Shown: in pieces, positions 1 to 28,904 of the stretch | Position numbering within the stretch: the first letter of the stretch is position 1 | Layout: the number at the start of each line of letters is the position of its first letter | DNA from: Uloborus plumipes | Lineage: Eukaryota > Arthropoda > Arachnida > Araneae > Uloboridae | Assembly (NCBI GenBank): GCA_038373865.1 | Contig: JAXGGA010002840.1 | Location: forward strand, 49,581-113,580 | DNA length: 64,000 nucleotides | Direction: 5' to 3' | Notes under the pieces: model-generated | Told to the model about the DNA's origin: nothing | Database searches by the model: none | Seen by the model: only the letters and a program-made list of their open reading frames with translations | Translations under genes and position numbers: made by a program

Positions 1-589
1 TTCCGTCTTGACAAAATCGCCAAGACGGACCATGGGACGGAAAAAAAATCGATCTCATTCCTTCAATATTTACTTCCAAAGAAAACAAAACTGAAGGTAA
101 TATAAAATCAGATTTCTTATAAAAGTACATTTTAATCATTATTCCAATCCAAAACTATTTGTATCGAAGCCTTTCTTTCTCTTTCTGAATAAACGAACTG
201 CAATGGCATAATTCCTTTGTCGGTGTTGATTCTCTTCGACCCCATCCATTCCCTTCCCATCCCTTAACTTCATCAAATATGACCTACAATTTCGTTTTAA
301 GGATTTCATTTTCTGTGCCTCCTCCTTTAATGTCATCAAAATTGCCCCACCTTATCCTAATATCACTAAACATCGTCTAAAAATAGGTTTTTTGAACTAA
401 AGTCTCGACAAATCCCCCCCCCCCCCACTCTCGATTACTATACTTAAAACTATGATCTTGCTGCTAAAAGTAAAATTAACCCCCCCACCCCCAGCTTAAA
501 CAATTTAATGAAAAATATATGTATTTTATTTGGTTTATTTTCTTTGGTATGCATGGGGGATGGGATCTCAAATATTTTCCGTCTTGGAA
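1..589. other. No gene recognised; C/G-homopolymer-rich DNA
   Basis: I see no supported gene here. The first 30 bases contain a short hairpin with 8-base arms CCGTCTTG and CAAGACGG. Bases 416-427 and 481-492 are C-rich homopolymer tracts of the kind found inside many small repeats in this window. A short minus-strand frame at 139-339 is basic and Lys/Arg-rich but matches nothing I know, and it is not collinear with the transposase remnant upstream of it on that strand. Confidence 0.4.
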
Positions 590-1290
590 GCATGGCCTAA
601 CTTGCACCCATGATCCAGAGTCTGACATCTCTAAACTTGATCCATTTGGTAAACCTTTGGCATACGACGGTTTTTTCCTAATACCCTTCATTATGACAAA
701 GGGAGGGATGGCACTTCCTGTTGCGCTGCTACAAACCGTAGCAGTAACAGTAGACCCCTTTTCTCCTGTCGTGGCGTGGTACACATCCTTTTTGCCTTTG
801 GAAGAAATCACTTTACCAGGTTTAAAAGTTAGCTGCAGTCCAGTTTCATCGGCATTAAAAATTCTTGCTGGTTCTTCTCACAGGTCCAACACATCATACA
901 TTTCCCCAAAAAAATTTCGTACTTCGTCTCTATTGAGACTTCTGGAATGTGCATAGGACAAGCCTTGAACTTTCCTTACTGACAAATTGAGGTGTCTTTC
1001 TAAGAAAGAATGTACCCAGTCATATCCTGCCATGCTTTTGTCTTTGTTGAACCGGTGCGTTAGATTCCTTTTTTCCGCAAATTTAAATACTAGTTTCCTA
1101 ATATCATTTACGGTCATGCCAAACCCCTTGGAATCCAGCAGTAGTAATTGTTCAACCAGTTCCTTTTCCATTGCATCATCTAATGTTGTTCCCTTTCCAA
1201 TTTGCTGGTTTGATACTGCACCTGTTAGTACCCTGATCCCTAATGTACTCCTCAGGACGTCAAATTTTTTGGCCGCAAGGGGGTTTATAC
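590..1290 (-). pseudogene. Broken pogo/Tigger-like (CENP-B/DDE_1) transposase
   Basis: This is a minus-strand remnant of a Tc1/mariner-superfamily transposase of the pogo/Tigger/Jerky type. From about 1290 downward it reads a CENP-B-like helix-turn-helix DNA-binding region (visible motifs IRKLVFKFAEKR and AGYDWVHSFLERH). An in-frame TGA follows at 878-880. Beyond that stop the same frame continues with the hallmark NADETGL around the first catalytic Asp, then VTATVCSSATG, IPPFVIMKG and SLEMSDSGSWV, all typical of DDE_1 domains. Similarity stops near 590, before the second and third catalytic acidic residues, so the copy is truncated as well as interrupted. The start is not preserved: a small MITE-like segment abuts its 5' side near 1290. 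The superfamily call is firm; the exact family is not. Confidence 0.8.
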
Positions 1291-1431
1291 ACATGGGCAA
1301 GGGTTTATACACATTGTAAGTTTTAAAAAAAATGGCAAACACCACGCCCACTTACATGTAAATACATTGATTTTCATAAGTCGGGGGGTGAGGCAAGTGC
1401 CCTCCCTTGGCCACCCTAAATGATGGGCCTG
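1291..1431. repeat. MITE-like fragment, GCCCGTCATT-end family
   Basis: This is one member of a dispersed family whose fuller copies lie at 7206-7358 and 60360-60539. It has the body features (CCACGCCCACTTACATG, a G-run followed by GAGGCAAGTGCCCTCCC) and the right end AATGATGGGCCTG. Its left inverted terminus is missing or decayed where it meets the transposase remnant. Confidence 0.5.
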
Positions 1432-10392: not shown

Positions 10393-10670
10393 GGAACCTA
10401 CCCCCCTCTAGGCAAGGGTGGATATAAGGGAGGGGCGATAGATCGATCGCCCCTCCCTTCACCAGTAATTTTTTCGATAATGCAATTCTAAACAAATTTT
10501 AATGTAGTTAGGGGAAGAAGGTTTGGGGTCTCTACTGGAAGTGTTTCAGAATTGAATTCCAAATCCTTTGTGATCAATATTTGTAAACCTCTATGCATAG
10601 TGAAAAGTAAACAAGAAAAATCAATTGCCCTTCCCTTGAAAAATTTCTGGATCCGCCCATGCCTCTAAGG
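10393..10670. repeat. Decayed MITE with GGCGGATCC-type ends
   Basis: The left end GGCAAGGGTGGATATAAG and the inverted right end GGCATGGGCGGATCCAG are related. The interior begins with a GC-rich palindrome around GATCGATC flanked by GGGGCG/CGCCCC. A better copy of the same family is at 22157-22332. Confidence 0.45.
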
Positions 10671-10870
10671 GCCCTTTGCCCCTTGCTAAGACCTACCTGC
10701 CCTTTCTCAGTGGCAGGTAGGAACTTTCCTCAGCTGTTATTTCCTGACTCCTCGCCACTCTCTCTAGTGTACTAGTAGCATACTAGTAGCGATCTAGTAG
10801 CGTACATAGACTTGGAAAGGGGCCTCTGCAAGCTTCGAAAGTGCGTCCCCCACCCCCTATTAAATTATTA

Positions 10871-11542
10871 AAAAAATTTCTGTGTAATTCATAGTGCTAT
10901 TGCAATTTCTTTTTTTTTATGTATGTTTGTTACCTTTGAAAATAAGGGAAACCAATTTATAAAACTTAATTCTGTTGTTGATCTGTCATGTATACAGTGG
11001 CGACTCGTGCCTTAATTTAGTGGGTGGGCCCGCAATTATATGTTTTCCCAGTAATGCTTACATAAATAAAATGAAGGAAACAACAGCGAGTAACTAATGC
11101 TGAGCGACGTAAAATAATATTTAATTCTATTAATACAAATTTGCATTGCAAAATTATCTCATTTGATTTGATACATAGGTTTTATATTTTAAATGTTATA
11201 CCAACCTTAAGCGATCAATGTAATAATAATAACAATATTTTGCACAGACGACAGACTTTCTATACACCACTAATTTTTTACAAAGCTAGCTCTCATAATT
11301 TTGCCATTTTCGGACAGTGAAAATATTCATCACATCAAAAGGGTCATGCCACAAGTCGGCGCCCCTCCTCAAACATTATGGACTGCACTCAAAAAGAAAA
11401 CAAACATTTCTGCCTAAAAACACACCCTCTCTCCCCCTAAAAATTTCGACAATTTGCAACATGACTTTTTGAAAACCTCTATCATCAAATTAAGGAACTT
11501 AGGAGCTCCTAATAATAAGGTAAATGACTCGATATAGGCATG

Positions 11543-11545
<3 letters not shown>
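10871..11545. other. Non-coding DNA before the Penelope-like element
   Basis: No gene is recognised. CAGTGGCGACTCGTGCC near 10997 and AGTCGGCGCCCCTCCTC near 11356 resemble the ends of the CAGTGGCG-type repeat family (compare 22950-23642). The remainder is AT-rich. Confidence 0.35.

Positions 11546-11600
<55 letters not shown>
11546..11600. repeat. (TA)n microsatellite at the 5' side of the Naiad element
   Basis: About 55 bases of alternating T and A, with one phase break, stop precisely where the first element-like sequence begins at 11601. A matching tract lies on the other side (14571-14616). The Ile/Tyr-rich start of the long open frame is only translated microsatellite. Confidence 0.9.
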
Positions 11601-11601
<1 letters not shown>

Positions 11602-11649
11602 AGGTTGTATTGCATAATTTTAACTAATTTGCTTTTGAGTTCTAGTTTA

Positions 11650-14106
11650 CCTAAGGTTGTATTGCATAATTTTAATAACATTTGCACTGTGCCTTTGAAA
11701 ATTTACCGGAGATGTGGGGATAAGAGATGCAAAACTTGTATTTATGCAGAAAAACATCAAATCAATGACAAAGCCGAGGACTACTTTTGTAAATGTGTCA
11801 ATGTTATTTATGCAATTGAATGCTTAACATGTGGTTTAATTTATGTTGGTCAAACAAGTAATAAATTAAGCATAAGAATGAATGGTCACAGGTCTGATAT
11901 AAAGAATTTTCATAAACACAACAAAAATGACATCGAGTTAGAACATTTCCAGGAACATAAATTTGACAATATTAAGATCTTCATTATGGACATAGAGTGT
12001 AATCTAAAAAAGAGACTTAATCTAGAAAGCTGGTATATGGGAAAGCTTAATTGTGTTTATCCATATGGTTTAAACACTTCGTTCCACAATAACAATAATT
12101 CTAACTGCTCAAAATGCGTATATAAAAAGTTTATTTTCAACAATACTAGAAGAAGAGGATGTAGGGGCAAGGGAAATTTTAAACGTAACACGCAAATTCT
12201 TCAAAGCTTCAATGACGTTAATTTCAGTAGTCTTACTATTAATAATCTAAGAAAAATCAAACACATGATAATGTCCTCAAAAAACAGAGCGCTAAAATTC
12301 TTCATTAGAAAACACCTTAATACTTTTTGCTTTAATAACAAAATGGTTCAGGATGCTATTATAGACCTTTTAAAATATAAATTAAACAGCGATGATCTTA
12401 ATCAGTATAACAAAAACCCAATTTTGCCTGTAGAAAACTTTGTGATCTCCTTTAAAAACAAAATGTTTGATTTTATAAATTTTTCCAAAATTTTTGATAA
12501 ATGTAGAGATAGTTTTCCTATGAAACAGCAATGTAATATCCGCAAAGTCTTCAAATATGAAAAAAGTTTAAAAAAACTCATCTGTAACTATAGCTTTTGC
12601 AGCAAAAACATTCACAATATACAAGAAAATGACTGTATTTGTAAGGAACATTTTTATAAAGACTTTATTAATAAAGAACATGGTCATATTATCACAGGTA
12701 ACTTAAATATAATACAGAATGAATCCCTAAAGTATCTCCTAGAAAAAGGCTCAAAATTTCGACCAGATAGTCACTTAAACAAAAATGCAATAATCAGTAA
12801 TTTCAGCAAAGAACTAGACATGTTTATTTTAAAAATCGCGTACAAGTATAGTTGGCCCATTGAAGGCTTTGTCGAATGGAAAAAGAAAATACTTAATGAA
12901 TTTACTTATAGTTACAGTTTATATAATTTTCACCATAAAGATCTTTGCAATTTTATCGATAAAAATCTTAACATGAGTATCAAAAACTTAAAAAAATCCT
13001 TTACTATCACTACAGTCGACAAAGCAAGTAATAACTTTGCAATCATGTGTAAATTTCTTTACAAACAGCTACTTTTAAATGAATATTCCAATATCAACAC
13101 TTATACAATGATTACTGAAGCAGAATCCAGCCTCAAGAAACGGCTACTCGCTTATGATAAAATCTTAAATACAAAGCATCTTAATTTCAGGTTTCCTTTC
13201 CTTTTTATTACAGTCAAATTTCATAAAAATCCAATTAAATTCAGGTTTGTCACAAGTGGTACTCATTCTTATAACGTGAGAGCCGGCTATATTTTCTTCG
13301 AAAAACTTAAAAATATCTTGGAAAAAATTGCTGAAGAAAAAAACTTAATTATTTTGAATAACCAAAAGGTTTTGAACTTTTTAAATAATCGTAATAACAA
13401 TATTTACAGTATCAACACTTTTGACTTCGAAAATCTCTTTACAAATATTCCCCATCATCTAATCTTAGACATCTCTAATAAACTCTACGAAAAGTATGAA
13501 TACTGCATAGGGTCAAAAAGAAGCTACTGGCTAAATTTAGTTAAATTCTGTGTTTTCGAAAACTATCTTTTTAATGGTTCTAATTTTTACAAGCAAATTA
13601 ACGGTATTCCCATGGGTACGTCTTTTTCCAGTGCCTTTGCAAACGTTTTTCTTCATATTTATGAGTCAAATTTTCTAGTCGATAATGATCTTGAGGCCTT
13701 CAGGTACATTGATGACATCATAATTTTTAACAACAGTAACTTCCATAATCTCTACAAGGATATTTATCCAAAAGAACTTTTGCTTAAACAAACAAATAGT
13801 AACAACACTGCTTCTTTTCTCGACATTTATATTAAATTAGAAGATAAAGATGTCAATCTAGCACTGTATGACAAACGTAAAGATTTCAACTTCAAAGTGC
13901 ACTCACTTATCCATTTTCACAGTTGTCTAAGTAAAAAGGTTTTCAAGAACATTATCATCTCCCAAGTTTCCCGATACAAAAAAATTTGCAACAATAATTC
14001 AAATCTAGACTCAGCAATAAGTCAATTAATTGTAACTTTAACTGAAAACTGCTACCCCGCGAATTTGACCAACAGTCTTATCAGTAGCGCATTGAAGAAG
14101 CCATAG
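11650..14106 (+). CDS. GIY-YIG endonuclease / reverse transcriptase, N-terminal-EN Penelope-like (Naiad)
   Basis: An uninterrupted frame (860 codons if read from 11524; about the first 40 are microsatellite or flank) ends in TAG at 14104-14106. Residue positions count from 11524. A Cys cluster CGDKRCKTC (64-72) comes first. The GIY-YIG nuclease has VIYAIEC and LIYVGQT at 94-111, Arg and His in RMNGHRSD (118-125) and the catalytic Glu in LESWYMGKL (167-175). A CxC motif in NDCICKEH (370-377) precedes GNLNIIQNESLKYLL (393-407), a motif conserved in Penelope-type elements. RT motifs: A, FDFENLFTNIP (634-644); B, NGIPMGTSFSS (694-704); C, YIDDI (729-733), with both Asp present. The protein should nick DNA and prime reverse transcription there. 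No in-frame UGA occurs, unlike the selenoprotein Naiads described in spiders and clams. The true start is uncertain: no Met lies between the microsatellite and residue 119, so an upstream start has probably been lost. Confidence 0.88.
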   Translation, partial: PKVVLHNFNNICTVPLKIYRRCGDKRCKTCIYAEKHQINDKAEDYFCKCVNVIYAIECLTCGLIYVGQTSNKLSIRMNGHRSDIKNFHKHNKNDIELEHFQEHKFDNIKIFIMDIECNLKKRLNLESWYMGKLNCVYPYGLNTSFHNNNNSNCSKCVYKKFIFNNTRRRGCRGKGNFKRNTQILQSFNDVNFSSLTINNLRKIKHMIMSSKNRALKFFIRKHLNTFCFNNKMVQDAIIDLLKYKLNSDDLNQYNKNPILPVENFVISFKNKMFDFINFSKIFDKCRDSFPMKQQCNIRKVFKYEKSLKKLICNYSFCSKNIHNIQENDCICKEHFYKDFINKEHGHIITGNLNIIQNESLKYLLEKGSKFRPDSHLNKNAIISNFSKELDMFILKIAYKYSWPIEGFVEWKKKILNEFTYSYSLYNFHHKDLCNFIDKNLNMSIKNLKKSFTITTVDKASNNFAIMCKFLYKQLLLNEYSNINTYTMITEAESSLKKRLLAYDKILNTKHLNFRFPFLFITVKFHKNPIKFRFVTSGTHSYNVRAGYIFFEKLKNILEKIAEEKNLIILNNQKVLNFLNNRNNNIYSINTFDFENLFTNIPHHLILDISNKLYEKYEYCIGSKRSYWLNLVKFCVFENYLFNGSNFYKQINGIPMGTSFSSAFANVFLHIYESNFLVDNDLEAFRYIDDIIIFNNSNFHNLYKDIYPKELLLKQTNSNNTASFLDIYIKLEDKDVNLALYDKRKDFNFKVHSLIHFHSCLSKKVFKNIIISQVSRYKKICNNNSNLDSAISQLIVTLTENCYPANLTNSLISSALKKP

Positions 14107-14275
14107 GTTGGTAGTTCTTACAGTGTTGTTTGAAAGTTCTTGTTTTTGTATTTCTTGTAATTTCATGTCATCTGTTCTATTTGAATTTTATTGATTATGT
14201 ATAGTGTCTTTTGAATTGTATTCTCTCGTGTATATGCATAAATGTATTGGACTTCTAGTGACCTACTGCTTGCTT

Positions 14276-14400
14276 GTGAGATGTCGGGGGCTAAAAGTTG
14301 CATCTTTTTAGGCGTTTTGCCTGCAACTTGCTAGAAACATCTCACTCCACTTTTCCCTACCCTAGGGGGGTCCCCCTGATGAAGGCCCCAGGGTCTTTTG
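14276..14400 (+). other. Structured 3' RNA region of the Naiad: stacked hairpin plus CTGATGA box
   Basis: Perfect 9-base arms GTGAGATGT (14276-14284) and ACATCTCAC (14337-14345) enclose 8-base arms AAGTTGCA (14295-14302) and TGCAACTT (14322-14329). These in turn enclose a GGC/GCC tip. Thirty bases further on, CTGATGA (14376-14382) is preceded by G6/C5 arms and followed by AGGCCC-CA-GGGTCT arms. CTGATGA plus a stem is the layout of a hammerhead core, but the required GAAA box is replaced by TTTTGGG. Naiads are reported to lack canonical hammerheads. I therefore read this as a conserved RNA structure or relic, not a proven ribozyme. Confidence 0.6.
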
Positions 14401-14568
14401 GGAATTTTATTTTTACTTCCGTTTTTAACAGATTTTTCGCAAGGTCTTTTACTTCTAATTAAAAATATGTCTGCTACCAGTTTCAAAGAGCTGCCATAGG
14501 CGCCTTTTGACCTGTGTGGTGAAGTTTATCTTTCTGTTCTATATGATTCTTCAACTACTTTGTTTATG

Positions 14569-14570
<2 letters not shown>

Positions 14571-14616
<46 letters not shown>
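14571..14616. repeat. (TA)n microsatellite between the Naiad 3' end and the LINE 3' end
   Basis: About 46 bases of TA repeat. On the minus strand it sits exactly at the 3' end of the LINE, so it may be the LINE's simple-repeat tail into which the Naiad later inserted. Confidence 0.9.
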
Positions 14617-14618
<2 letters not shown>

Positions 14619-14766
14619 AATGTTGCAATTTCAGTTCATGAAAATACAAATCCTGACAGTGTTAAACTTCAAAATGTCACTTTTATAGCCATGATATTTA
14701 CATTGACTTTCAATTTTAATGAATGTGTATGTTTTTAAATAAATTAGAGTACACTGACTTGACCAG

Positions 14767-15484
14767 TTATGGTCCTACTCGCTTACCAATGTATGGTCGT
14801 ATACTCAAACTAGTGATGAGCTGAATCAAATTATTTTCAGAAAATACGCAATGAGTCTTCTTCTTCTTACTTATCTCAGGTTGTCTAGCTGGGCTAGACA
14901 ACCCCCATAAACCAAAAATGTCTAAAACATCTAAAAAAAGTATAGGGTCTCTAAGGACTTCGTCTTTTGTAAAATTCAAACAGGTCAAGATATGTCCGGG
15001 GGAAGCCACGTCGGCGCAACACCAAGGGCAATTTGGAAAAGTCTTTTTCCACTGCTGAAAGGTGAGTCCCCTCGTGTGCCCACTCAGAATGCGGGAAAAG
15101 GCAGTTTGATATGGTCTTGGAATAATGTTGAAAGTCTCACCTGGTCTTTTGGCAAAATACCAGGAATGGCTAGAGGGGATTTTCATGAGCCGATTGAATT
15201 CAATCCATGCCAGGGATGTAATCTCACTAGATGTGAGCGTTCCTCCTGGGTTAACTCCCTCCTCTGACGCCGACCTGACCAAGAAATCCGCCTTTTCGTT
15301 CCCTTCTACTCCCACATGCGAGGGGATCCATTGGAAATGCACTGTATGTTTGGGTGATAGTCTCTCAAGAAGATTTAGAATGTCTAGGCTAGTTTGATCT
15401 CCAACAGTGCTCCAATTTGAGAGATGCTGAACCGAAGCGCGACTATCGGTCAAAATCCAGATGTCCCTAAATTGGTCCCCCACC
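14767..15484 (-). pseudogene. LINE polyprotein, C-terminal part (second half of RNase H and zinc knuckle)
   Basis: This is the 3' part of the LINE reading frame, separated from the rest by the hAT insertion. It begins in the middle of RNase H: DIWILTDSRASVQHL carries a catalytic Asp, and QWIPSHVGVEGNEKAD carries the conserved His and final Asp. A CPWCCADVASPGHILTC segment (Cys-Cys-His-Cys spacing) follows and resembles the C-terminal zinc knuckle of many LINEs. The frame ends at 14767 and is free of stops. The Met at 15483 is only the first one after the insertion, not a real start. Confidence 0.85.
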
Positions 15485-15492
15485 TCTACTGC

Positions 15493-16893
15493 CAGGGTTG
15501 TTTGATTTCGTCCGGGGTGGAAAAAACCACCGGAAAAAACCTGGAAAAAACCGCCCCGGACGAAATAGCATTTTGTCCATTTTGTTCACTTGAAAAAAAA
15601 TGACAGTTCTTGATTAAAAAATCCAAAGTTTAAAAGAAATGTTTTAAAATATTGATTTTTTTTTCAATGAGGTAATAGTTTTATTATCAAAATTAGCATA
15701 CATAATTATGTATACAAACAAATATTTAATAAACAACAGATATTATAAAAATATAGTATCTGTATAAAATAAATGAACATTAACGATAAGATTTAATGCT
15801 CATGAGAGCACACATCAGCAGTAAATAATTTCAAGATGTTTATTTGTTGTGAAGGAGTTTCATTGCTAACAATAAAAGTGTACATAAAATATAAAAGTAG
15901 AAATAAAAATTTTAAAAAGTTTCAAAATATTAAAAACCCTATGAAGTAAACATTATTTGATGTCAAGAAAGAAAATTTTACCATGAAATGAAACATGTTC
16001 CTATAATAACATAATTGTATCCATAAAACAATGCTGTGTACATAAATATTTTACAATGGGGCAACGTTCATTAAATCCTCAAAAAATATAACGTAGAATA
16101 AATAATGCAGAATAAGAAAAAGGAATTATTTTTACATAAATGAATAAAAGTCACGTTAAATTTTTAAGGATATCCAATGTGCATATCGACAAAAAAATGA
16201 GTAATCGTCAAATGCTTCATCAGCTAGTTGTTAGTCCTTAGAATTTAAGCTTTTATATGCCATTATCAATTTTGATGCAGTTTGTAGTCCTAGCCTATTT
16301 CTAAGCTTGCTTTGTGTCTTGCCAAAATTTGAAAAAATACGTTCAATGCTTGCTGATGAGGCTCACATTGAAAAAGTTGACGTGCAAAACTAGAAATAAT
16401 TTCTTAGTCACCGTATCTCTTCAGTGATTCCCACCATTCTGTTGGCGATAGATTATTTACGATCGCCCCTACTTTTTAAGGGATTGTAATGTGTTAAATA
16501 AATATCTTAGGTGACAGAATACTCTTTAATTTTATTTTAAAAATATGTATTAAAGAAAAACTTTTTTTTCTATTTGTCTACTCTCTATAATAATGTAATT
16601 ACTCTCAATAGTTTTTTCATTATGTTAAATTTTATTTCTTGCTACTAAAACTAGTTAAAAATCAATGGGATAATTGCCATTCTTTTTATTTTTTTTTGTA
16701 TGATAGCATCATTCTATTTTGGGAAATAGGTAATGCAAGAGAGATACTACACTAATTGTATATCATAACATTTTTATACATCAAACGTGTAAAAAAATGT
16801 GTTTTATTTTCATTTCTTCCATTTTGTCCATTTCGTCCACTTCTTCCGGCGTCCCGGACTTTTTGCAAAAAAGTGGACGAAATGACAACCCTG
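15493..16893 (-). mobile_element. 1,401 bp hAT element inside the LINE, 8 bp TSD
   Basis: The element has CAGGGTTGT at both inverted ends, with further subterminal TTTCGTCC similarity. Perfect 8-base direct repeats TCTACTGC (15485-15492 and 16894-16901) flank it. An 8-base duplication plus CAGGGTTG-type ends is diagnostic of hAT. Removing it and one duplication copy leaves the LINE frame continuous. The interior is mostly non-coding except for a decayed transposase C terminus at 16245-16460. Solo ends of the same family occur at 39050-39122 and 41276-41350. Confidence 0.93.
16245..16460 (-). pseudogene. Decayed C-terminal hAT transposase (dimerisation region)
   Basis: Read on the minus strand with frameshifts, the segment gives LSPTEWWESLKRYG, a degenerate SSASIERIFS-like stretch, then a KLRNRLG-like stretch and LIMAYK. 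This is the order of the hAT C-terminal dimerisation domain. Stops and frame changes show it is dead. No N-terminal or catalytic part remains, so the element must have depended on transposase made elsewhere. Confidence 0.65.
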
Positions 16894-16901
16894 TCTACTG
16901 C

Positions 16902-18700
16902 ATACTGTAAACCTCTTCTAATGGCAACCAGCTCTGATCTAAACACGGAACAGTTATCTGGGTTTCTTATTTTAAATTCTTGTACTCCGGAGATTGTGTT
17001 TATATATACCCCACTGCCCGAGACTCCACCCTCACCTTTACTACCATCTGTGTAGATTTTCAGAGAACAAGGTGGGATATTATGGATTGTTTCAAGTGCC
17101 AGTTGCTTAACGAGAGCCGGAATCTCCGAGTTTTTTGTCACAGTTGTTAGGAGCTCTTCATGGAAGTAAATTCCGTCAAGTTCTAATCTGGCCCCTAGTG
17201 GTTTCAACGAGTGACCCTCTATATTCGAAGAAGGGAGATTTATTGTCCTGGCGTAGGAAAAGGGGCTGTGCTTCTTTAGTCGTTGGTTGTTGGTCCAATC
17301 AAGGAGGTAGCCAGAAGTTCTGTTTTGCTCGTTATAGCTAATTAGCTTGTTATAATATTTTGTAAGGCACAGGATTCTTCTCTGGGAAAGAGATGGCAAA
17401 TTACTTTCGTAATCCACAATTTCATTTGGACAACTATGTTGTAGCCCTGTGATGACTCTAGCTGCGCTGCGCTGCACTCTCTCAAGCTTATCCAGGTTAG
17501 TCTTGGAAGCGCAGGAATAAATTGGAAAGCCGTACTCCAGTATTGGCCTAACAAGGGAGATATATGTAGTGCAAAGTGTGCAAGCTTCTGCGCCCCAATC
17601 TCGACCTGATGTATATTTGAGGATATTCAGACTTTGTCTAGCCTTAAGAACTTGTGCTTCAATATATTTATTACTTGTGATTTCCTGATCAAGGATATAA
17701 CCAAGGTATTTGGCATTTTTATTGTAGCTCAATTGAGTTCCACCCATTAAAACTCGAGGCTGGTAATTAAATAGATGTCTGTCGGTTGTAAAAAAGGTAA
17801 AAATAGATTTTGAAGCATTAAAAAATAATTTATGTTGTTCAGCAAAATGGTAAGCCCCATCCAGAGCATTATTAAGTTTAAGCTCAATGTCTTCAATATC
17901 AGGGCTTGAGTTGTAGATGATGATATCATCTGCAAATATGCCCATTTTACAATGTTTGTTAAAGACTTTTTCGATACCAGAGATATATAATGAAAACAAT
18001 ACTGGACTCAAGACCGAGCCCTGCGGAACACCTTGTTTCATTCCAAAAGGATCCGAGAGGGTGTTATTGTACTTAACTCTTATTGATCTATCCCGGAGAA
18101 AATCCAAAATCCACGGGAGTATTTTGCCCTTAATGTCAAAGGAGTCATGCAGCTTAACAATCATTAATTGGCGCCATACTCTGTCAAACGCCCTAGACAT
18201 GTCCAAGAGGATTGATGCAGTGTGATTGGTGGGCTTCATATTTTGTGCATCACGAATGATGTGATAAACAAACAAGATTTTTGGTCAATAGTGCTATGTC
18301 CTCTTCTGTATCCATACTGCTCTCTCGGTATCAAGTTACCAGTATCCAGGTGTAAATTTAGTCTGGCCAAGATTAGTCTCCCCATGAGTTTACACACAAA
18401 CAAGGTAAGAGCAATTGGTCTAAAGCTCCCAGGAGAGCTAGCCTCTTTACAGGGTTTCATTATAGGCACAATGGTTGCTCTTTTCCATTCTCTAGGGAGA
18501 CGGCCCATTCTCCAAGATAGATTGAAAATATCCAAAAGTCTCTGCAGGCCATGAGGCCCCAGATTCCCGATCATGACGCCATGGATACCATCTGGGCCAG
18601 GAGTTTTACGCAGTTCCACAGTTCTCAAAGCCAAATGTAGCTCTTTCAGAGAAAATTCTCTAACAAAAAGTGATCTGCCACAATTAGAAGTGAGGTACTT
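16902..18700 (-). pseudogene. LINE reverse transcriptase and first half of RNase H (frameshifted)
   Basis: Reading down the minus strand from about 18700, the RT fingers appear first: LRKTPGPDGIHGVMI, SFRPIALTLFVCKLMGRLI and EQYGYRRGHSTIDQ. A single frameshift near 18283 moves the frame. The palm follows with ILLDMSRAFDRVWR (motif A), GVPQGSVLSPVLFSLYI (motif B), FADDIIIY (motif C, both Asp intact) and AKYLGYILD (motif E). The thumb region has LVRPILEYGFPIY and LERVQRSAARVITG. RNase H begins with LKIYTDGSKGEGG (catalytic Asp) and FRSELVAIRRGLQY (catalytic Glu), and is then cut at 16901 by the hAT element. Its low decay suggests fairly recent activity. Confidence 0.87.
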
Positions 18701-18745
18701 ATGGGTATAAATTTTCGATTTATTTTTGATGACAACGTCATTTTG

Positions 18746-18820
18746 GTTATGTACACAATGTATGTACATTGTTATGTACACAATGTATGTACATTGTTAT
18801 GTACACAATGAGTACATAAC
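18746..18820. repeat. 25 bp x 3 tandem repeat at the truncated LINE end
   Basis: Three consecutive 25-base units start at 18746, 18771 and 18796. The first two are identical (GTTATGTACACAATGTATGT plus five bases) and the third diverges after its first half. Each unit is internally near-palindromic (GTACACAATGTATGTAC). It abuts the point where LINE similarity ends. Confidence 0.85.
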
Positions 18821-28142: not shown

Positions 28143-28526
28143 CTGTGGTGGTGGTGGGGGGGGGGGTTGCGTACAAGATAGGGCTCATGATCCACAAAAA
28201 TAGCACACTATAAGTTACACGAAAAGAGTATTTTTAATTTAATAAGGGTGGAGGGGAGGGGGGGTGAACTTACAAATCTTGTAGTGGAGCACACGGAAGG
28301 CTATATACGCTACTAGTTTTGTCTCTAACAGTATCTAGTAGTCAAAGAAACAATGTTTAATAGGTTGAAACTCCCCTATCAATATCCACCCATCTCTTCC
28401 CAAATTATAGTTGTGCTTATCAAATCTAAAGTAAATCTTTCACATTATTTTGATTATCATTTTGCGTATGTGTTATTCATTTCCCCCTCAAGCTATCATA
28501 CATTAACAGTTCAATATTTGTTTCAG

Positions 28527-28904
28527 ATGTCAACCAAGCGACCAAGGATTCTTCTCAACGAAAGTGGAGAAAACCAGCAAAGAAGAGAAGGACAAACAAG
28601 GATCCAGTGCAGCATATGCTTCAACACTCGGAGATTTAAGAAGACAGTTACCACAAAATGTGGCCATGTATTCCATAAAGGATGCGTTGACCAATGGCTG
28701 CTTTATAATGAAACATGCCCGTTGTGTCGAGCCTTCATAGGCATAGACACCAACAGAGGACAATTAGAACGGGCACTAGATGAAAACACTGAAGTGCCAC
28801 TTGCATCCCCCCGAGCTCTGAGGCAAAGACTGCCTCTAAAGACATTTTTAATAATTTTTTTATTATTTTGTATCATGATTATTATATTTATAATATATTA
28901 CTGA
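28527..28904 (+). CDS. Small RING-H2 protein with C-terminal membrane anchor (putative E3 ubiquitin ligase)
   Basis: A 125-residue protein. After a basic, polar N terminus, residues ~28-68 form a RING-H2 finger with C-x2-C (CSIC), CGHVFHKGC giving the third Cys, two His and the next Cys, and CPLC at the end. Trp in DQWL before CPLC is the usual E2-contact position. A short acidic linker follows, then a ~20-residue hydrophobic stretch (TFLIIFLLFCIMIIIFIIYY) ending at the stop, as in tail-anchored membrane proteins. The ATG directly follows an acceptor TTTGTTTCAG, so a 5' non-coding exon is likely upstream; the frame is also open further 5', but that part looks intronic. A polyadenylation signal AATAAA lies at 29015-29020. 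Related RING proteins ubiquitinate membrane-associated substrates; the specific target is unknown. Confidence 0.8.
   Translation: MSTKRPRILLNESGENQQRREGQTRIQCSICFNTRRFKKTVTTKCGHVFHKGCVDQWLLYNETCPLCRAFIGIDTNRGQLERALDENTEVPLASPRALRQRLPLKTFLIIFLLFCIMIIIFIIYY

Follow-up and report, generated by a model that had tools for sequence, protein, structure and literature searches.

The subject of this report is a 64,000-nucleotide stretch of the genome of the spider Uloborus plumipes (‘the window’; contig JAXGGA010002840.1, here C2840, positions 49581-113580; the assembly searched holds 1.42 Gb in 25,906 contigs), and in particular a retroelement on its forward strand that lies between two arrays of (TA)n, at 11545-11601 and 14572/14573-14616. 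The element is almost certainly a Naiad-type Penelope-like retroelement (PLE), with its GIY-YIG endonuclease at the N-terminus, that inserted recently and in 5'-truncated form. Elements of this kind are already known; what is new in this analysis, and is not claimed to be unpublished, is a clade of compact reverse transcriptases (RTs), the abutment of 3' ends on TA runs, and a rule by which the two arms of head-to-head ‘twin’ insertions end at two different sites. The best overall explanation, which we consider highly probable, would be a young truncated Naiad whose family makes RNA with pseudo-long terminal repeats (pLTRs) and inserts through a (TA)n-primed cycle that uses two sites.

The coding part of the element lies within a stop-to-stop frame of 860 codons (11524-14106, +), the initial ~26 of which are host DNA and (TA)n array read through; its own coding part, of ~830 codons, is open over 11602-14106 (+). 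A profile search for the two domains, which the preliminary description of this DNA had named as a check, matches Pfam GIY-YIG at residues 94-165 (E 4e-7, exceeding the cut-off) and RVT_1 at residues 614-739 (E 7e-7, with a score right on the cut-off of 29.6 bits). The endonuclease (11803-12075, +) carries C100-x2-C103, H141-x3-H145, R118 and the catalytic E168 (12025-12027), and is preceded by a cysteine cluster, CGDKRCKTC (residues 64-72; 11713-11739, +). It is followed by a linker domain with a CxC motif (C371 and C373; 12634-12642, +), located, like the cluster, by alignment and conservation counts. The RT core extends from motif 1 DK (D499) to DKR (K784) (13018-13875, +), with YIDD at residues 728-731 (13705-13716, +), and is compact, with 57 residues from motif A to B'. 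In the ungapped rows of 67 aligned relatives, R118 is conserved in 54/54, E168 in 61/61, C371 in 65/66 and C373 in 66/66. The permuted order of endonuclease, CxC linker and RT in one uninterrupted frame, as first described, is thus borne out by the Pfam matches, by a BLASTP comparison with a canonical Penelope protein in which both domains match in crossed order, and by the same order in 15/15 relatives aligned. The ‘CICK’ motif reported in the linker is present, although at residues 371-374 rather than 372-375, and the frame indeed contains no in-frame UGA over its 860 codons.

That BLASTP finds both domains in the canonical protein too might suggest a canonical PLE, with its endonuclease at the C-terminus, in front of which a second GIY-YIG gene has been fused or inserted. 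The Pfam search found no C-terminal GIY-YIG of the canonical Penelope/Poseidon kind in the window frame, however, and relatives and sister copies share the identical order; together with an RT that falls outside the canonical group at 100/100, this makes such a fusion extremely improbable. Sixty-seven relatives were recovered (7994 candidates scored). Since P0001-P0013 match nearly the whole query, at 30-49% identity over 92-98% of its length (best E 4e-220; 36-49% over 92-98% for P0001-P0007), the frame is not a product of chance. For two trees the RT domains were cut by alignment. The first, of 73 rows (49 of the 67 N-terminal rows, short or >80% identical ones having been dropped, and 24 of 121 canonical rows), separates the 49 N-terminal-endonuclease rows from the 24 canonical ones at 100/100 and places the query in an eight-row group, also at 100/100. 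In the second, of 77 rows, five own-genome rows from four sister families were added and the long-branched P0067 was removed; the division, now of 54 from 23 rows, again has 100/100, and the compact group comprises 13 rows at 100/100. The element thus stands outside the elements with C-terminal endonucleases, as the preliminary description had supposed, in trees of which no row carries a Repbase name; the assignment to Naiads rests on features.

Those features are of two kinds. N-terminal-endonuclease PLEs have a CxC motif between endonuclease and RT, and are typically described as carrying an insertion of telomerase type in the fingers domain (IFD). The Naiad clade was reportedly defined by Craig et al. 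in 2021 as one with an N-terminal endonuclease, a CCHH motif being said to be present in Naiads and lacking in Chlamys; the same work is said to describe pLTRs, tandem and inverted inserts, a bias of insertion toward microsatellites and the lack of a canonical hammerhead ribozyme, as well as selenocysteine (Sec) Naiads in spiders. The window family displays the N-terminal GIY-YIG domain, the CxC motif, a separate RT clade, the CCHH residues (C100-x2-C103...H141-x3-H145), microsatellite bias, and pLTRs and inverted inserts. Over the 67 rows, the H145 column contains H 28 times, C 28 times, S once and a gap 10 times, a spread that is perhaps partly a matter of alignment. Rfam produced no hammerhead match to E 5 in window 10500-15500 or to E 1 in twelve loci, which is a statement on matches only. 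Among viral contigs, 105 matching stretches were found and none was confirmed. Among genome contigs, 70 stretches included two N-terminal-endonuclease Penelope-like loci, L001 (JABSQY010000114.1) and L002 (NYSS01000008.1), in metagenome-assembled genomes labelled as a nanoarchaeon and a planctomycete, respectively; both are probably eukaryotic contamination.

The spider's own genome contains at least 55 matches to the element (window copy and split copies counted; the protein search scored 54 of 2814 first-look candidates, and 55 is a lower bound), of which 43 are at ≥95% identity and 29 are stop-free over the matched stretch, many of them truncated. One unbroken match runs from the endonuclease to the end of the RT in six other loci (L004-L008 and C138), which, with the 15/15 continuous relatives, indicates that the N-terminal GIY-YIG segment is not a separate insertion. 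Sister copies set the 3' end of the element at ~14572 (earlier given as 14570) and delimit a 466-bp 3' untranslated region (UTR) at 14107-14572 (+). Because four further loci match this UTR at 100% (rounded; 837 bits, against 841 for the self match), the window copy appears young, as first proposed, and the comparison supports a recent insertion.

At its 5' end the same copy is damaged. Six sister loci (L017, L018, L019, L020, L021 and L031) match it from 11624 on and diverge before that point, where a repeat search identified a displaced 24-bp piece (11600-11623, +), identical to 11652-11675, that abuts the (TA)n array (TRF, 11545-11601); it follows that the window copy is 5'-truncated and without a start codon. 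The displaced piece may be the scar of a template switch, and the 30-nt 5' junction is found once in the assembly. Native codons resume at ~11623 and continue to a TAG stop at 14104-14106 (+), so that ~47 native codons, including the initiating Met, and the 5' UTR are missing. The start, which had been called unclear, is fixed by sister copies for the family, while the window copy itself has none: in L017, L021 and L031 the native N-terminus is MESK(I/L)NLNIPHGPSxGL(T/I)RGP...VGSTSVKKLP, and in the form MESKINLNIPHGPSRGLTRGP...VGSTSVKKLP it resembles P0001 and its kin. Another candidate for a repeated start of the open reading frame (ORF), MSATSFKELP near 14467, was rejected, the native start being MESKINLN. 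Elsewhere (G000:C19058:2422-2639), a 32-33-nt piece of the start of the family's 5' UTR occurs in three repeats at 93-bp spacing.

The preliminary description had held the copy to be possibly competent, and ~830 open codons with intact catalytic motifs do recommend a functional autonomous element. The first in-frame ATG inside the element, however, is residue 119, within the endonuclease, and the sole in-frame ATG upstream (11524) belongs to host DNA on the far side of (TA)n; with neither native start codon nor 5' UTR, autonomy is very improbable, and the window copy, judged from its sequence, is not autonomous.

The family's 3' ends are informative on how it inserts. Fifty-nine of them were examined; L032, whose match ends short of element position 2855, and L038, which had no hit, are not among them. 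At 56/59, a TA run of ≥10 occurs within the next 40 nt, the three exceptions being L026 (a small extra fragment), L034 ((TGTA)n) and L036 (A14); in the window copy the right-hand array is placed by TRF at 14573-14616, and the truncated 5' side likewise adjoins (TA)n. The ends fall, within a few bases either way, at two sites 104 nt apart. The short site (14461-14468, +; AAAAATAT) accounts for 27/59; the long site, which ends a 104-nt optional tail (14469-14572, +) and is the one used by the window copy, accounts for 32/59. Past the short site the template goes on as GTCTGC in the window sequence, and past the long site it reads TTTATGC in L100 and enters a 5' UTR, an order repeated in L096, where the ORF then follows. 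Because the template continues beyond each of them, both sites look internal, and at both the last 4-5 nt form an AT tract potentially able to pair with (TA)n. In other copies (L096 and L100, and L011 and L016 of a sister family, S1, which consists of L011, L012 and L014-L016), the end part of the 3' UTR, together with the tail, also precedes the 5' UTR, an arrangement like that of a pLTR. No such repeat was detected inside the window copy (11600-11900 against its own 3' region; 20/500 shuffles scored as high) or between the 5' part of L017 and the 3' region of the window (282/300 shuffles scored as high).

Many inserts are head-to-head pairs, with their 5' ends joined and their 3' ends facing outward. 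Both ends are known for 22 twins, and in 21 of these a short end is paired with a long one (permutation p 3e-5). Dropped before this count were L034 (arm interrupted), C22193 (contig ends), C1090:66089 (partner interrupted), and C1090:53372, L032 and C12799 (unclear or tiny partners). In S1, which has different end sequences and a tail of ~70-79 nt, 5/5 pairs also have one of each (C271, C3139, C13175, C920 and L012). Nine single-arm copies comprise five long and four short ends. Two loci, L025 and L026 (G000:C10062 and C6518), share the same 5'-5' junction (731/1055) with short and long ends swapped between the arms and with different flanks.

Two classes of end would likewise result if the RNA had alternative 3' termini, from two polyadenylation or cleavage sites, with the RT starting at the RNA end, and the use of both sites by single-arm copies (five long and four short, as classed by hand) agrees with this. 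We nevertheless regard such an origin as improbable: in L100 and L096 the sequence does not end at the long site but proceeds into the next unit's 5' UTR, the long class includes sequence beyond the short site, A runs were seen at just two ends (A14 at L036, and A7 before the TA run at L074), and nothing in this explanation predicts one end of each kind per twin.

The two internal sites and the twins instead suggest the following cycle. The element's RNA would span pLTR, ORF and pLTR, as suggested by the copies in which the 3' UTR end and tail precede the 5' UTR, and the GIY-YIG domain, to judge from the flanks, would cut a (TA)n microsatellite. The RT would then start within the RNA, at one or other of the two observed sites, and copy toward the 5' end, with the short AU tract at each start site presumably paired to (TA)n. 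Were both target strands to be used, two complementary DNAs (cDNAs) begun at different sites and joined at their 5' ends would yield the head-to-head twins. The window copy would be a one-arm product begun at the long site, whose cDNA may have switched template once, close to where the ORF begins, and, after 24 nt had been copied, been joined to (TA)n. The twin pattern is observed; for the mechanism, an asymmetric dual target-primed reverse transcription, we see roughly even chances. An integration complex with two unequal halves would be the best reading of the twins. Stated for Naiads at large, it is a balanced wager that within every integration complex the two target strands prime at different RNA start sites, the upstream and the downstream one, each of which pairs with (TA)n, leaving twins with a tailed and a tailless end, and that this happens through a compact RT clade that lacks, and has perhaps shed, the telomerase-like fingers insertion. 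In a lizard PLE, both strands are cut and extended, and the RT starts internally, at two sites that bound a ‘tail’ (PMC11167929).

Several points weigh against this mechanism. It rests wholly on insertion structures; the twin ends were classed by hand from BLAST tables, those of C287 and C1336 from match ends with their flanks unread; one twin, L031, has two long ends; and partner arms are tiny (~40-140 nt) in L021, L033, C11753, C3759, C676, C287 and C1336. In the lizard PLE, moreover, the RT start is reported to lack homology to the target and to be alike on the two strands (PMC11167929), so that AU pairing and the strand rule may not extend from one element to the other. Lastly, in only 3/11 twins is an arm's closest relative its own partner, which speaks against one shared RNA.

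The possibility that both RTs share a single RNA with two start sites deserves mention here, as it explains the twin rule simply. The arms of L026 are identical (0/1815), and those of L027 and L029 start at adjacent or identical element positions (702/703 and 1402/1402, respectively), as would suit a common template. Arm-to-arm differences amount to 0-0.9% in 11 pairs; those of L020 come to 7/461. Against a shared RNA, in both L030 and L034 one arm agrees at every compared position with an arm from elsewhere in the genome and differs from its own partner (at 6/1648 and 8/1111 positions, respectively), as two template RNAs would give. Because partners are rarely closest, and because the arms of L030 and L034 match other loci, two template RNAs are the more likely; a single shared RNA is disfavoured, and we think it rather unlikely.

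The RT that would carry out these steps is unusual in its dimensions. In the query group (8/8 rows) the interval from motif A to B' measures 56-57 residues, and in the own-genome rows (5/5, four families) 57-59, against 65-67 in P0008-P0015 and 77-93 in 41/42 further N-terminal rows with both marks, the exception being P0056, with 53 (654 residues, later marks missing); 9/67 rows are unmarked. The 96 canonical rows have 50-59. From motif 2 to A, the interval is 58-62 in compact rows versus 69-73 in 41 long rows. In structure models, a beta-hairpin (642-645 and 650-653) of P0020 separates the helix that follows motif A from the one behind it; a short turn takes this place in the query. The query RT thus belongs to a compact clade whose intervals between motifs 2 and A, and between A and B', lack the expansions found in other N-terminal-endonuclease relatives. 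The A-to-B' interval is where TERT carries its fingers insertion; on the assumption that the A-to-B' insertion is the published IFD, the telomerase-type insertion is absent from the query. That does not exclude the element from the Naiads, as the UGA-bearing spider families, which we take to be published Naiads, lack the insertion too.

The compact form may reflect loss of the insertion or be an early state. The first tree nests the compact group within the long-insertion rows; in approximately unbiased tests, neither a single clade of long rows (p 0.19) nor a union of compact with canonical rows (p 0.22) is rejected, and the long rows are joined in 57% of 200 bootstrap trees (second row set). 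A linker resembling the telomerase RNA-binding domain is only a lead from model alignments: for most telomerase rows the alignment begins at about model residue 305 and for most other RTs near 460-505, with two non-telomerase rows also beginning early (9d4s at 311 and 6vug at 316).

The window family has Cys codons throughout, and was rightly described as not being one of the Sec-rich Naiads, yet Sec-type sister families share the same genome and, in S1, L013 and L081, the query's compact RT clade. UGA occurs at C89 and C371 in L011 and L016 (S1), at C89, C103 and C509 in L013, and at C509 in L081; these four columns are otherwise Cys in ungapped rows, save one Tyr at C371, and the window family has Cys codons at all of them. 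A further UGA lies close to the C-terminal end of S1 and may be its stop, and in L016 another precedes the alignable part. A search for Sec insertion sequence (SECIS) elements listed none for L011, L013, L014, L016 or L081 up to E 1, and therefore gives no support to the Sec reading of the UGA sisters, without excluding it; in the window family there was no match up to E 5. In L080 (G000:C10682), a UGA-free Naiad frame is followed, ~40 nt past its stop, by a SECIS-like match (2914-2977) that falls short of the curated threshold (26.5 of 35 bits, E 0.29) and is possibly the relict of a return from Sec to Cys.

With Naiads the window family shares a GIY-YIG domain before the RT, the CxC linker, CCHH-like endonuclease residues, pLTRs, inverted inserts, microsatellite bias and an invertebrate host, and the missing Rfam hammerhead match may be a further point in common; it differs in an RT without both inter-motif expansions of most N-terminal-endonuclease relatives, and in being all-Cys, not Sec. 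The Sec-type sister families have the same compact RT, with the same two-site tail and twin rule in S1, and UGA where the window family has Cys codons. TERT has no endonuclease, and the window RT is short in the A-to-B' interval. Canonical PLEs (PAc of Anolis and Adineta vaga Penelope) share AT-rich targets, pLTRs and inverted inserts (PMC11167929, PMC3846280), while their endonuclease is C-terminal and their tail is 30-40 bp, against an N-terminal endonuclease and a tail of 104 here. In PAc, too, reverse transcription begins internally, at two sites that delimit a ‘tail’, but PAc has a hammerhead and a start site not homologous to its target (PMC11167929). In Adineta vaga Penelope, inserts are inverted and the tail is optional on one inverted repeat (PMC3846280).

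The surroundings of the element include further mobile DNA. Directly downstream lies a broken Jockey/BS-like long interspersed nuclear element with RT and RNase H pieces (14767-18796, -). Among the matches listed for its frame at 16755-18284 (-) (120 of 1611), the closest are spider proteins, at 69% in Trichonephila clavipes, with Araneus, Uloborus and Parasteatoda next and weaker ones in a pseudoscorpion. Fragments at 476-1351 (-) resemble a pogo/Tigger-type transposase. A 191-codon ORF (28329-28904, +) resembles, by eye, a RING finger with a C-terminal membrane helix.

The joining of both PLE ends is an open question, on which the twin rule bears; the lizard study calls the steps after internal reverse transcription yet to be validated (PMC11167929). 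One end of each kind in 26/27 twins, in two families, provides a quantitative and testable constraint, namely that the halves of the complex would not be equivalent. Cys and UGA versions at the same invariant positions, in one genome, furthermore offer a natural comparison of the role of selenocysteine.

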